DNA of 64,000 nucleotides, from positions 62,001 to 126,000 of the forward strand of contig NZ_JACHIG010000009.1 in assembly GCF_014203095.1 (NCBI RefSeq). The letters run 5' to 3'. The position numbers and the translations under genes were made by a program. Under the pieces are notes generated by a model, which saw nothing but the letters and a program-made list of their open reading frames with translations, was not told the DNA's origin and made no database searches. Numbering within the stretch: position 1 is the stretch's first letter; every line of letters begins with the position of its first letter. Below are positions 42,827 to 62,200 of the stretch, piece after piece. The stretch comes from Prosthecobacter vanneervenii. GTDB taxonomy: Bacteria > Verrucomicrobiota > Verrucomicrobiia > Verrucomicrobiales > Verrucomicrobiaceae.

Positions 42827-44044
42827 ATGGCCCTGCGTCTTGATACCGCCGTCATCCGTGGCGAAATCGACAATACCACCCGCGACAACGTGCGTGGCAG
42901 GCTCTGGCTGGTCGGCCGTGAAGATCCCGTCCTTATCGACCTGAGAGGCAATGCCTGGCGGGATGTGGCCGGCTGCAAAGTCACCTTCATCAACCCCACT
43001 CCCTCTGCCCGCCCTGCTGCGTTGAATCTGCATTCAAAACAGAGGGGCCGGGTCGGCGACATCACCGCCTCTCTCAAAGTGAAGGTTTATTCGGGGCCGG
43101 AAGATCAGGTGAGGAACTGTGAGGAGGAAACCTCGGGACATGCTACTGCCCGATGGCACAACGCGCTCTACTTTGAGTGGTTCTCCGAAGAAAATGGCCG
43201 CGTGTTTATCGAGGGAACGGATTTTGAGGTCAGCATCTCTGCCTGGGTCTGGGAAATGGACGGCCCCCAGGAGAAGGCGCAGAAAACGGCCAACCTCAGT
43301 GCAATGCGCGAATGGCTGGCCGGCATCATCCAACGTCCAGAACTGAAGGAAGAGGCCGAAGATGAGTTCGACGACAGCGAGGAAGCCTGGGAGGACTCTC
43401 TCAAGCAGTCCGACAGGCTCTCGGATGCGCACATGGAGGCGATCGAGAAGTATGGCGAAGACGGTCTCCATGATGACCGAATCGCCTTTGTCATGGGCTG
43501 GGACCACATGCTGAGCGGCGGCCATGACCATGGAGCCGATGACGGAGATGGCGAAGGTGAAGCCTGGAAGGAAAGGCAAGAAGAGTCACCGGAGCTGGAC
43601 GCTCTCGCGAGCGAACTCGACGATGAAGCCTTCTCTGACTTCCTGGACGAGCACGATCACGAAGCCCACCCGCTGCAGGTCATGGCCCAGGATTTCGTCC
43701 ATCGTCTGCTGACCGAGATCGAGGATGAACGCTCCGAAAGCACAGCGGGGGACGAAGACAACACACCGCTCGACCGCTTCATCCACAACTCAATGAACAT
43801 CAGCGGCAAGCTGGCGGGAGTGCTCGGCATGCAAGACTTTGAGGGAACATCCCACACCGGCCACACCCTGGCCATCCTGCGGCGCTGCCTCAATTGGGCC
43901 AATGAAGCCTTCGCGGCCTTGAACGAACTGACGGAAGCCCCCGAATGGAAGGATCGTCAGAATTTGCTCAATGACTTCCGCGCCGATCTCTTCGCCATCC
44001 GTGATGGCATCACAGATCTGCGCAGAAAGCTCCGCTCAGAGTAG
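42827..44044 (+). CDS. uncharacterised protein, copy A of a family found twice in this window
   Basis: 405 residues from the ATG at 42827; in-frame codons further upstream overlap scpB and are rejected. The N-terminal ~150 residues show a beta-rich domain with WRDVAGCKVTFINPTP and NALYFEWFSEENGRVFIE. The same pattern occurs in the product of 51325-52341 (LRDIAGCRVDFHNPLP; NLLFFEWFNHEHQRILI). The centre is very acidic (EEAEDEFDDSEEAWEDS; DELHDH-like repeats with many His). The C-terminal ~120 residues are helical. No signal peptide, so probably cytoplasmic. No known family is recognised. It is divergent from scpB and monocistronic. Confidence 0.75.
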   Translation: MALRLDTAVIRGEIDNTTRDNVRGRLWLVGREDPVLIDLRGNAWRDVAGCKVTFINPTPSARPAALNLHSKQRGRVGDITASLKVKVYSGPEDQVRNCEEETSGHATARWHNALYFEWFSEENGRVFIEGTDFEVSISAWVWEMDGPQEKAQKTANLSAMREWLAGIIQRPELKEEAEDEFDDSEEAWEDSLKQSDRLSDAHMEAIEKYGEDGLHDDRIAFVMGWDHMLSGGHDHGADDGDGEGEAWKERQEESPELDALASELDDEAFSDFLDEHDHEAHPLQVMAQDFVHRLLTEIEDERSESTAGDEDNTPLDRFIHNSMNISGKLAGVLGMQDFEGTSHTGHTLAILRRCLNWANEAFAALNELTEAPEWKDRQNLLNDFRADLFAIRDGITDLRRKLRSE

Positions 44045-50704: not shown

Positions 50705-51277
50705 TTACTTGCGGACTGGCAGAATCAGCTCGTCTCCGGCTTCAATCCGCACCCCGGGGATGACAATGGTGTTGTCAATATCCACCACGGCCTCCGCAGC
50801 CTCGATCGTCTCACCCACGCTGACGCGACCAACGAGACCGTTGCCCCGGCGCACATCAAATTTCATTCCCGGAGTGAGTTGCTTGTCCTTGCCGACATTG
50901 ATCACGGCAAAGCCCTGGTCGGTGTGAGATTCCACCACTTTGGCAAAGGCTGGCATTCCGAGAATCTGCTTTTGCAGATCTGTCAGCGGCGCTGCGGCAG
51001 GAGGAGGGGACGGAAGAGGAGCTGGAGTGCCCGGCATCAGGCTGCTGCCTGCGAGCGGTGGCACAGTAGAAGGAGGAGGCGCGACAGGTGGCGGCGGCAG
51101 TTCAGCTACAGTCACTGGTTTTGCTGGCATGGCAGCTTCGTGGGCAGCCTGCTGCTTGCGCACCAGTTCCAGCTCCTTGCGCGCTCCCTTGGCTTCTTCC
51201 TGGGCCTCCCAGGCCAGATAGCCGGTGATGGCGAGAAGAATTATGGTAAGAGCTAGAGCATAGTGTGAAAGACGCAT
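50705..51277 (-). CDS. membrane-anchored protein with coiled coil, Pro-rich linker and C-terminal beta domain
   Basis: 190 residues from the ATG at 51277. An N-terminal membrane helix (YALALTIILLAITGYLAW) leads to a short coiled coil (EEAKGARKELELVRKQQAAH), a Pro/Ala-rich linker and a C-terminal domain KDKQLTPGMKFDVRRGNGLV, VGRVSVGETIEAAEAVVDID and IEAGDELI. The last part resembles the small barrel found in FlgT-like and other envelope proteins (GLxxGxxFxVxR...GD). The function is unknown. It follows the copy B gene 47 bases upstream. Confidence 0.65.
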   Translation of the reverse strand: MRLSHYALALTIILLAITGYLAWEAQEEAKGARKELELVRKQQAAHEAAMPAKPVTVAELPPPPVAPPPSTVPPLAGSSLMPGTPAPLPSPPPAAAPLTDLQKQILGMPAFAKVVESHTDQGFAVINVGKDKQLTPGMKFDVRRGNGLVGRVSVGETIEAAEAVVDIDNTIVIPGVRIEAGDELILPVRK

Positions 51278-51324
51278 GCCGCATGCTAGACGCAAGCTCC
51301 CAAAGGATCAACCCCGCGTCGTCT

Positions 51325-52341
51325 TCAGCGCAGCAGGCCTAGCAGTTCGCGCATGCGCAGCTCGATATTGAGCAGACTGGCCTGCACACCTGCCAGCCAT
51401 TCCATGTCCGCACCTTGCGGATGCTGCTGCACCAGTTTGTCCGTGGCATTGAGAGCTGCGGCAAAAAGGGGAAGACTTTGCTCCAGATCAACCACAAGAA
51501 ACTGCCACTGGTCTTTTTCCACTTCGGCAAACTGACACAGCACATGGATCAAATGCGCCGCCAGATCAGCCACAGTGGAGAGCAGCCGCAGCACCGCAGG
51601 TCTGGTTCGCACCTCCTCATTAAAGACCAGCAGGCTCTGAAAGCGCCGCAGCTCCTTGGCCAGAGCCGCAGAACGTGTGACGGGGTCCATGCTTTTGCTC
51701 TGAGGCTTGGCCGGTAGGTTGTGCGGCGGCTGGATGGCAGAATCATTTTTGACAGCGCCGAAGGGATCTGAGCCGGGCTTGGTGGGCTGGAAAGGATCAT
51801 CAAAACCAGGGCTGTGGAGCGCGTCTGCTGGTTTGGCGTTGCGGCCGGAGCCGAGGAGAAAATGCTTCCGCCGGGCACGATTTTGGCGCAGCAGAGAGGC
51901 TTCCTCCTCCTTGGTAAGCTGCCAGCGGGGCGGGGAGACTCGCAGTTGCAGGTGCCAGGACTGGATGAGGATGCGCTGATGCTCGTGATTGAACCACTCA
52001 AAGAAGAGCAGATTTTTCAGCCCGGGAGGATCTGGCAGCGAGGGCCCTGAGCCAGACTGTGATTTACGTCGTGGCAGCTTGGCCACACGGTAGGAGGCGG
52101 TCATCAGCCCGCTGTAGCCATGCTGCAGGGTGGAGATGGAGCCAACCAGGCTCTCATTGGCATCTGGCAGTGGATTATGGAAATCCACACGGCAACCCGC
52201 GATGTCCCGCAAAAAATTGCCCACAAGTTCGACACGAATGGACTGATTTTGCCCTGCAAGATGCAACACACCTGTCACCAAGCCGGGTACTTCATTGGAG
52301 AGGTACCCACCCAGGACGGAGGATTCGAGGCAAATAATCAT
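51325..52341 (-). CDS. uncharacterised protein, copy B of a family found twice in this window
   Basis: 338 residues from the ATG at 52341. The N-terminal half matches the product of 42827-44044: LVGNFLRDIAGCRVDFHNPL against WRDVAGCKVTFINPTP, and NLLFFEWFNHEHQRILI against NALYFEWFSEENGRVF, in the same order and spacing. The centre is a disordered, Pro/Ser-rich linker, not acidic as in copy A. The C-terminal ~110 residues are helical (SLLVFNEEVRTRPAVLRLLS, LIHVLCQFAEVEKDQWQFL). No signal peptide. Function unknown. It is divergent from the GYF-domain gene. Confidence 0.75.
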   Translation of the reverse strand: MIICLESSVLGGYLSNEVPGLVTGVLHLAGQNQSIRVELVGNFLRDIAGCRVDFHNPLPDANESLVGSISTLQHGYSGLMTASYRVAKLPRRKSQSGSGPSLPDPPGLKNLLFFEWFNHEHQRILIQSWHLQLRVSPPRWQLTKEEEASLLRQNRARRKHFLLGSGRNAKPADALHSPGFDDPFQPTKPGSDPFGAVKNDSAIQPPHNLPAKPQSKSMDPVTRSAALAKELRRFQSLLVFNEEVRTRPAVLRLLSTVADLAAHLIHVLCQFAEVEKDQWQFLVVDLEQSLPLFAAALNATDKLVQQHPQGADMEWLAGVQASLLNIELRMRELLGLLR

Positions 52342-52534
52342 TAATACTCATACAAACTAGAGCCCACTATGAGGAGCCGCAAGCGGACATGATTTGATGA
52401 AATCAAAAAATCCCCCCTCCAAGAAGCGGCCTCCACATATTGTGGAACTGTGGCAAGATTGCTGCTTGTTCCACATGGTGAGTGATGTTACGGCCCCTCC
52501 CCCCCCAAAACCTAAAACCAATACAAAGCACACC
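52342..52534. other. intergenic leader of the GYF-domain gene with an imperfect hairpin
   Basis: 193 bases. A long imperfect inverted repeat is present: TGTGGAAC (52441-52448) pairs with GTTCCACA (52468-52475), with an inner CAAG/CTTG pairing. A second short palindrome CCACATATTGTGG overlaps the left side. It is not followed by a T run, so it may be an operator or leader structure rather than a terminator. The frame of the next gene is open across it, but no ribosome site supports an earlier start. Confidence 0.4.
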
Positions 52535-52789
52535 ATGAAAGACCTTGTCTATCTCAGCCGCTCCTTCGTCGAATTTGGCCCCTTCTCCAAGAAGGAAATC
52601 CTTGATTTCCAAAAGCGTGGAATCCTGGCCGAGTCCGACTACCTCCGCGATGAAGGCAGCGACAGCTGGGTGCACTATCAGGAGTGGCTGACCGTCGTCC
52701 CGATGCCCGCGCCGAAGCTGGTGAAAAAGCCGGCCGTCAAAGAGCCCGCAGCCAAGGCACCGGCCAAGAAGGCCAAGAAGGCCGCCTGA
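52535..52789 (+). CDS. small GYF_2-domain protein with basic tail
   Basis: 84 residues from the ATG at 52535. The sequence YLSRSFVEFGPFSKKEILDF, QKRGILAESDYLRDEGSDSW is the GYF_2 (DUF4339) fold: an FGPF segment, a helix and a closing W, normally binding proline-rich peptides. The last ~25 residues are Lys/Ala/Pro (KKPAVKEPAAKAPAKKAKKA), like histone-tail or DNA-binding tails. Possibly a partner of a Pro-rich protein such as the kinase linker or the neighbour at 50705; that is inference. Confidence 0.72.
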   Translation: MKDLVYLSRSFVEFGPFSKKEILDFQKRGILAESDYLRDEGSDSWVHYQEWLTVVPMPAPKLVKKPAVKEPAAKAPAKKAKKAA

Positions 52790-59294: not shown

Positions 59295-62200
59295 CCCGCG
59301 GCGATGTCAAAGCGGCAGGTCACCACCACGCCACGCTTGACCTTGTTTTTAATCGTCAGCCGGGCCCCAATGAGGTTGGCGCGGTAATCCATCACCCGAA
59401 CCCCGATCCCGTTTTTCTTCCCGGACTTGGGCTTTTTCATGCCTGCACCATCATCCTCAATGCGCAGCTCCGCCTCCTTGGGGCCTACCTGCTGAAGGGA
59501 AATTTTCACCTGCGATGGTTTGCCATGCCTCAGCGCATTATTCACTGCCTCCTGGGCGATGCGGAAAAGATGCGTCTCGATGTCATTGGCCTGAGGTGCA
59601 ATGGCAGGGTCCACATTGCACTCGCAAGGCGTGCGAAAATTAGTCCTCACGGTCTCAGCCAGCAGTCGCAGCGCCCCCACAAGGCCGCGGTATTTGACTC
59701 CTGTGGGAGAAAGTCCGTGCGACATGCGGCGCACTTCAGAAACCGACTGGCGCAGCAGTTCATGAATACGTTGGGCCTGCTGCCTGGTATCTCCTGCAAG
59801 ATCCGACTCCAGCGCCTCCACCAGCGAAACGATGCCGGTCATGGTCTGGCCCACACCATCATGCAGGTCATGGCCCACGCGCGCCTGCTCCTGCTCCACC
59901 ACGCGCAGCACCTCCTGCTGCAGACGGTTGCGTTCCGTCATGTCCGTGCCGGTGACGACGATACGGTCATAGGTGCCATCAGGCTTGCGTGTGACGGTGC
60001 TGCGGATTTCCACATAGCGCCATTCACCGCTTTTTGTCCTCATGCGAGAGTCGGCAGGGGGATTTTCCTCCCCACGCATCAGCCGGGCAAAGCGCTCCTG
60101 GGAGCGAGCCGTCTCCGCCTCATCCATAAGCCCGAGCTCCCATGGTGTCTTGCCGATGATCTGCTCTTGCGCGTACCCCATCGTGGCGCTGAATGCGGAG
60201 TTTGCATGCACAAACCGCCCTTCGAGGTCAAGCACGGCAATAAAGGCAGATGTATGGCTGACCAGCGCCTGATTGTAGGCCAGCTCCCGCAGATAATTCA
60301 GCTCCACCTGCTTTCGCTCAGTGATATCTTCGACGACAGCAATGTGCCTCAAAGGCGGCTCGCCAGGGCGCCACATCGGCGAAACAGTCAGATGAATCCA
60401 ATGCTGCTCGCCATCAGGGCCCACGTTGCGCTTTTCCAGTTTAAAGCTGGGGATCTTTCCAGCCTTCAAAGCTTCCATTTGTGAGAGATCATCCTGCAAG
60501 TCATCTGAGCAGGTGATGTCCATGAAGGTCAGCTTCAGCATTTCCTCGGAGCTGCGACGGTTGATCTCGCACATCCTCTGGTTCACGCTGAGAAAGCGCC
60601 CGGTCGGCGTATCAATGACAGCCACTCCTACGGCCGCCTGCTCAAATACAGCGCGGAAACGCTGCTCGCTCTCCTGCAGCGCCTGCTCCACGCGTTTGCG
60701 CTCGGTGATGTCCTCCACCACCGCCACATGACGCAGTGGCTCTTCACCGGGCAGCCACATGGGTGAGACGGTAAGATTGACCCACTTCACAGTTCCATCC
60801 GGGAGGATGTTGCGCTTCTCGAGGTTGTAATTGCGGATTTTTCCGGCTTTCAGAGCTTCCATTCGCTCCAGCGATCGAGGAAGATCCTCCGCGCAGGTCA
60901 ACTCTTTGAAGGTCAGCTTCAGCATCTCCGCCCGGGTGCGCAGATTGATCTCACAGATGCGCTGGTTTACGTTCAAGAAGCGGCCGGTGACGGTATCCAT
61001 CTCTGCCACACCGACAGCAGCCTGCTCAAAGACAGCCCTGAACCGCTGCTCACTCTCACGCAATGCCTGTTCGGCCTGCTTCCGGTCCGAGATGTCCGAA
61101 ATGGTGCCCGTCATGCGTATGGGCTGGCCTTGCTCATCCCAGTCGGCTTCTCCTCGGGTGAGAAACCAGCGAAAATCACCTTTCTTGGTTCGCAGCCGCA
61201 GTTCCACCTGGTAGGGCACCCGCTTGTCAAAATGCTCCTGTCTCGCAGCTTTCACCCGCGGCCAGTCTTCCGGATGCAGACGAGACATGAAGGCCTCCTG
61301 ATCGGTCCCTAGAGGCTCATCATCATCAAAGCCCAGCATCTGCTTCCAGCGTGGCGAGAGGTAAGTTCCTCCCGTGATGAGGTTCCAGTCCCACAGGCCG
61401 TCAGTAGTGGCGCGCATGGCTCGCGCATAGCGCTCCTCGCTCACCAGGAGTTCCAGCCGGCGTTTCTCCCCCTCGATGGCCAGCGCCGCCAGTCGTGCTG
61501 CCGCAGTGATCGTCTGAATTTCTGCCTGGTCTGGATTATGAATCTCCCGCCGATAGCAGGCAAAGGCACCTAGCACCTGCCCTGTTCCACTGACTACAGG
61601 CTCCGACCAGCAGGAGCTCAGCCGGGCTTTTTCCGAGAGCCTGTGGTAGGCCTCCAGCCGAGGTTCAGAGCGGATGTCCGCACAGATCACTCGCTTGCCG
61701 GTAAAGGTGGCCACCCCACAGATGCCGATGTCAGGCGAGATGGGAGTGCCATCCAGGGCCTTTTTGACATATTCTGGCAGACTGGGAGCAGCGACCATTT
61801 CCAGCCGGGTGCCTGTTTTATCTGCCAGCATGATGCTGCAGCGCATGCCCTGATTGCCCGCTTCGACACTGCGCACAATGGCCTCCAGCACGGCTGTGTA
61901 TGGGGCCCCTTCGACGATCAGCTGCAGATTGTGTGCCTCACGCTCTTCAGCAGCCTTGCGCCGCGAAATGTCCTCCAAGGTCCCCGTCATTCGCAGAGCA
62001 CGGTTCTCCACATCTCGCACTATGACTTTCCCACGGCCCATCACCCACTTCCACGAACCGTCTTTGCACCGCATGCGAAACTCATGGACAAAATCGTCCG
62101 ATTTGCATGTCAGGTGGTCATTCACCGCCTTCTCTGTTCCGGCCAGATCGTCCGGATGCACCAGGGGGTGCCAGCCGTTTTCTGAACCGGGTATCCACTC

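Follow-up and report, generated by a model that had tools for sequence, protein, structure and literature searches.

Several described families resemble the proteins analyzed here in part of their structure. The S23/IVP (PF05635) and Avd families may share with them a predicted four-helix bundle of similar size, but these families lack the N-terminal beta domain of our proteins and show no profile homology to them in a small comparison set; PF05635 proteins are also present separately in all six genomes tested. Cytosolic copper storage proteins (Csp) are defined by a bundle core lined with many cysteines. The bundle of one of our proteins, copy B, superposes on the Csp structure 6ei0 (Z 13.9, rmsd 2.4, 112 residues), but the bundles of copies A and B contain one cysteine each, as read from the translations, and Csp identity was rejected. 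PilZ domains, for which an RxxxR motif is the criterion, were considered because of a D-x-A-G motif in the N-terminal domain. They were rejected as well, as no RxxxR occurs in columns conserved in at least 85% of 104 aligned rows and PilZ is not among the 11 Pfam families listed for 36 N-domains. The PVC signature protein CT421.2 is comparable as a protein of unknown function that marks the PVC group (PMC3444138). At ~53 to >80 aa, it is far shorter than the members of the present family, which the accessible portion of that paper does not mention. Among the papers listed by the literature searches, most of them as titles and opening lines of abstracts, none is evidently on this family.

Two members of an uncatalogued family in one window

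The window, meaning the whole stretch of DNA that was analyzed, comprises 64,000 nucleotides of Prosthecobacter vanneervenii (contig NZ_JACHIG010000009.1, forward-strand positions 62,001 to 126,000). A sequence-only reading had proposed that it encodes two homologous proteins with a common order of motifs, which the translations confirm as RDVAGCKVTFINP and LYFEWF in copy A and RDIAGCRVDFHNP and LFFEWF in copy B (Table 1). Pairwise BLASTP bears out the homology (E 1e-20, 29% identity across 170 columns), and on this alignment A and B are relatives in one so-far unnamed protein family of Verrucomicrobiota. The same reading counted the family twice. Both copies are real, but the genome contains three: the third copy (C5:16146-16697) is 43% identical to A across 182 residues and consists of the N-domain only (189 aa, with the start set by aligning relatives).

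Table 1. Window coordinates of copies A and B and of their parts
Feature	Position	Strand	Description
Copy A	42827..44044	+	405 aa; N-terminal beta domain, MGW segment and four-helix bundle
Copy A N-domain (aa 1-142)	42827..43252	+	Predicted mostly beta
Copy A MGW segment (EEAWEDSLKQSDR..EKY..FVMGWD)	43379..43534	+	First part of the module that is elsewhere a separate protein
Copy A C-terminal predicted four-helix bundle	43667..44041	+	Second part of the module
Copy B	51325..52341	-	338 aa; N-terminal beta domain, Pro-rich linker and four-helix bundle, without MGW segment
Copy B N-domain (aa 1-142)	51916..52341	-	N-terminal beta domain
Copy B linker (aa 165-218)	51688..51849	-	Two DPF motifs
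Copy B C-terminal predicted four-helix bundle (aa 219-338)	51328..51687	-	

The gene models are consistent with comparative data. A residue is present in the column of the copy A start codon in 97 of the 104 aligned N-domains, and it is methionine in all 97; some of the remaining N-domains begin with GTG at that position. Compared with three relatives from the genus (loci L044 to L046 for copy A), dN/dS is ~0.17 to 0.23 for copy A and ~0.06 to 0.07 for copy B, and these low values indicate that both genes are maintained under purifying selection. Inspection of both sequences by eye found no signal peptide.

The family is uncatalogued in Pfam and NCBIfam, in agreement with the initial impression that it could not be recognized. 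The best Pfam match of the window proteins scores 12.2 bits against a cut-off of 31, and NCBIfam gave none up to E 1. Broader queries gave similar results: 18 Pfam families are listed up to E 1 for 28 A-type members, the best at E 0.0087 in one of the 28, and 11 are listed up to E 1 for 36 N-domains, the best at E 0.0094 in one of the 36. The stand-alone and further family proteins also all score far under the cut-offs. Sequence searches of the PDB returned nothing convincing: in one listing the matches were weak and helical, led by phospholipase C beta-3 at E 0.013, and another had one match at E 0.0085 over 31 positions that disappeared with a broader profile. Four proteins compared with the defense families of PADLOC-DB had no match up to E 0.1.

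Conservation and predicted structure

The N-domain spans ~145 aa and is predicted to be mostly beta. Eight residues are identical in all 104 N-domains (G41, D46, G49, G74, G77, E117, W118, and W142 in A numbering), and G12, N16, A48, N56, Q72, T80, S82, N112, and R125 are near-invariant, with R125 present in 102 of the 104. His, Cys, Lys, Ser, and Arg are all missing from the invariant positions, a mild argument against a classical hydrolase or metalloenzyme.

We modeled both full-length proteins with AlphaFold2, using 33 sequences for A (mean pLDDT 85.2) and 29 for B (mean pLDDT 80.3). In both models the first 140 residues are mostly strands, predicted with high confidence except around residues 90 to 110; for copy A, the mean pLDDT of 10-residue blocks of the N-domain is at least 88 except at aa 91 to 110 (72 to 74). 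Both models end in four long helices, consistent with the helical C-terminal domain that had been read in each protein. Foldseek searches with the full-length models found nothing in the PDB at E 0.001 or better for A or B, and likewise nothing in the viral library for A, while the VIA-align rows for both models cover almost only the bundle. The A-type and B bundles are probably homologous, as judged by profile comparison, in which hhalign gives a probability of 74% (P 2.8e-5) against 0.2% and 0.16% for reversed controls.

The N-domain also occurs without a bundle: in addition to the third copy, N-domain-only proteins of 168 to 206 aa are found in other family groups. The 168-aa forms (L063, L064, L083, and L084) adjoin a CHAD-like gene, Pfam scanned in L063, and a divergent GT2 glycosyltransferase gene.

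Phylogenetic distribution and divergence of copy B

The conserved N-domain is distributed widely across Verrucomicrobiota. At E 0.001 or better, the N-domain profile matches 131 of 189 genomes sampled from the order, 100 of 384 from the class, and 86 of 387 from the phylum, these samples overlapping; 27 of the matching genomes in the phylum sample lie outside the class, a few of them with weak matches. Within the same family group, single-sequence queries, which also pick up other paralogs, gave B-like matches in 62 of 68 genomes and A-like matches in 61 of 68. With the B query, 36 of the 48 genomes from the genus have at least two matches, so that several copies per genome are indeed found in this lineage. 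Most family-bearing genomes outside Verrucomicrobiaceae show one match.

A scan of contigs for relatives of A used single-sequence patterns that reach close relatives only, and the contigs recovered carry Prosthecobacter, Verrucomicrobiaceae, and other Verrucomicrobia-type titles, as well as that of one Akkermansia muciniphila MAG. Spread of the family by viruses or plasmids was considered and rejected, with no relatives detected in viral contigs by the one pattern used and no match to the family on plasmids.

We constructed an IQ-TREE phylogeny from 104 N-domain rows, 102 of which are different (L065/L207 and L068/L220 are the same genes entered twice); its bootstrap is not fully settled and its root is a midpoint. 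Copy B, the other B-type proteins, and the 168-aa forms fall on one side of a branch of length 2.35 with support of 100/100, in a clade of 18 rows and 16 distinct genes that all belong to family group f1. Copy A groups with other long A-type proteins, and the N-domain-only third copies come together in a seven-row clade. From this placement, B looks like a Verrucomicrobiaceae-specific, fast-diverged paralog, and A appears to keep the widespread architecture. The idea of a lineage-specific expansion thus holds in part: the B clade is confined to f1 in the sampled rows and the lineage has several copies, but the family itself is phylum-wide. As an uncatalogued and conserved family that is wide though not universal in Verrucomicrobiota, it is a candidate for biology peculiar to the phylum.

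A module that occurs both fused and alone

The linkers of the two copies had been described as wholly different. Their compositions do differ, with D+E at 32% and H at 5.2% in aa 146 to 280 of copy A against P at 19% and S at 11% in aa 165 to 218 of copy B. However, what lies between the two domains of A is more than a linker, as it contains the conserved EEAWEDSLKQSDR...EKY...FVMGWD segment that B lacks. This WE..SDR..EKY..MGW segment and the four-helix bundle together form a module that other Verrucomicrobiota have as a protein of its own. A search of five genomes with the segment following the N-domain found a match in one of them, G277 (E 0.001), in a protein without an N-domain, and relatives of this stand-alone protein are present in 50 of 188 class genomes, some of which are 1.3 to 1.8 Mb in size. 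The stand-alone proteins (L151:1432-2121 and loci L241 to L280) are uncatalogued and ~220 aa or somewhat more in length. From the 50 matched genomes we drew 40 loci, chosen because they match the module and extending at most ~6.5 kb on each side; their open frames gave no match to the N-domain up to E 10.

The fused and stand-alone modules are homologous by profile comparison (hhalign 99.8%, P 2.3e-28). At E <1e-3, an HMM of the stand-alone form reaches 53 of the 105 N-domain proteins, with copy A at 8.5e-16. Outside the B clade, it matches 52 of 71 long proteins and misses 19, whose bundles, taken together, nevertheless match the module profile (95.8%, E 8e-9). These proteins thus keep the bundle with another middle part, so that not every fused protein has the MGW segment. 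At L161 to L166, L170, L174, and another 11 loci, its place is taken by a different, charged stretch. The B bundle gave 0.15% with the stand-alone module profile, no better than a reversed control (0.23%).

A mixed profile detects the module, whether fused or stand-alone, in 172 of the 384 genomes sampled from the class, and once in the genome studied here, in A. Among these 384 genomes, 81 have both N-domain and module, 19 the N-domain only, 91 the module only, and 193 neither. The co-occurrence of the two parts is not independent evidence of a link between them, because A-type proteins carry both.

The linker of B has a feature of its own. The linkers of 31 B orthologs contain 60 D/NPF motifs, compared with 1.77 expected by within-linker shuffling, a control that ignores relatedness. 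At least two such motifs are present in 27 of the 31, namely, in 23 of 23 orthologs from the genus but in 4 of 8 from other genera, so conservation of the pair is firm within the genus only.

Gene neighborhoods and candidate functions

We tentatively favor, at a little less than an even chance, the explanation that A, B, and the third copy are cytosolic, non-enzymatic, two-module connector proteins, that is, scaffolds or adaptors; we infer the location, the non-enzymatic nature, and the connector function alike. The N-terminal beta domain, which exists as its own protein in several lineages, would be the recognition part. Fusion to the MGW segment and bundle in copy A would tie together physically whatever each of the two parts binds, and copy B, with its diverged second part and D/NPF linker, may link N-domain targets of the same kind with other partners. 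Parts that occur both separately and fused show the classical pattern of parts acting together, and we prefer a connector because the family has neither enzyme-like invariant residues nor a match to a known family. A possible adaptor role had been suggested from the start, and the modular architecture is compatible with it. The earlier view of a linker in A needs correction, as the stretch joining its domains belongs to a separate module and is not only a spacer. The 52 of 105 N-domain proteins that the module HMM does not reach count against the connector model, as do the lack of a match between the stand-alone profile and the B bundle and the occurrence of paired D/NPF motifs in only 4 of 8 B orthologs outside the genus.

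The split and fused forms of the module and the conserved gene order at some stand-alone loci point to concrete candidate partners. At the stand-alone loci, neighbor distances were taken on stop-to-stop frames, and identities come from a Pfam scan of one representative each. No conserved neighbor was found across the N-domain loci as a whole. For copy A, an operon-based explanation was rejected, as a divergent scpB gene and a cupin gene flank it in part of the genus only and loci of the genus such as L057 to L062 have neither. Around stand-alone modules the picture differs by family group. Of 16 loci (f14, f19, f23, f33, f42, and f45), 12 have an rlmN-like gene upstream, 10 an ECF sigma gene downstream, and 8 both, so that the module sits between them in 8 of all 40 loci; a gene with a weak zf-HC2-like (anti-sigma-like) match under its cut-off follows downstream in 9 of the 16, same strand. 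These neighbors suggest that the module, and hence copy A, might act in gene regulation, partnering either an ECF sigma/anti-sigma pair or the translation machinery; in the fused form, the N-domain would be the sensor. We consider this unlikely, although it fares best among the alternatives. None of these genes is present at another 20 stand-alone loci (f13, f17, f44, and f47), 15 of which have a divergent acylphosphatase gene, and 4 of the 40 loci (f39 and f50) have neither neighbor set. Around N-domain genes, rlmN was found at a single one of 93 loci and an ECF sigma gene at none of them. The neighbors may merely share a promoter.

Still less probable in our estimate is that the N-domain is an enzyme, acting, for example, on a sugar or nucleotide, with the bundle as an oligomerization part. 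The invariant D46 and E117, together with the near-invariant N16, N56, Q72, T80, S82, N112, and R125, could form an active or binding site. A divergent GT2 glycosyltransferase gene, identified by Pfam Glycos_transf_2 in the two genes scanned, adjoins the family gene at seven loci in six genomes (f1, f3, and f4) and in two further f1 genomes (L063 and L064). However, this neighborhood is restricted to few genomes of one order, and no convincing match to an enzyme family was obtained. A phylum-specific signaling scaffold, in which the stand-alone MGW module would work with the ECF sigma/anti-sigma pair and possibly rlmN, the fused form found here would be a one-piece version with an added sensing domain, and B, a second version evolved in Verrucomicrobiaceae, would recruit partners through its D/NPF motifs, seems to us more doubtful again.

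Predicted bundle structure brings in a further alternative. The A bundle superposes on the S23 family protein 2rld_B (Z 13.0, rmsd 2.1, 108 residues) and on Avd (8ub8; Z 10.3, rmsd 2.6, 108 residues), but a designed bundle reaches Z 11.5 for A and Z 14.2 for B (in the case of B, 9u78_A, rmsd 2.4, 114 residues), and these values can mean only a common arrangement. Homology to S23/IVP was rejected: hhalign against five S23-type proteins of mixed subtype from these genomes gave 1.2% for A and 0.1% for B, and PF05635 is absent from the 18 Pfam families listed up to E 1 for the A-type members. Binding of nucleic acid or of the ribosome by the bundle, in the manner of S23/IVP and Avd, is to us the least likely reading, the rlmN neighbors of some stand-alone modules speaking for it and these comparisons and the strongly acidic linker of A against it.

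Between copy B and a tlyA-like gene, the window encodes a 196-aa protein (50705-51295, minus strand) for which no Pfam match reaches its cut-off; 18 of the 20 loci L024 to L043 have relatives of both neighbors next to B. Divergent from copy B is a gene for a small protein (window 52394-52789, plus strand) with a weak GYF_2-like stretch (E 0.003, under cut-off), relatives of which are likewise present in 18 of these 20 loci.
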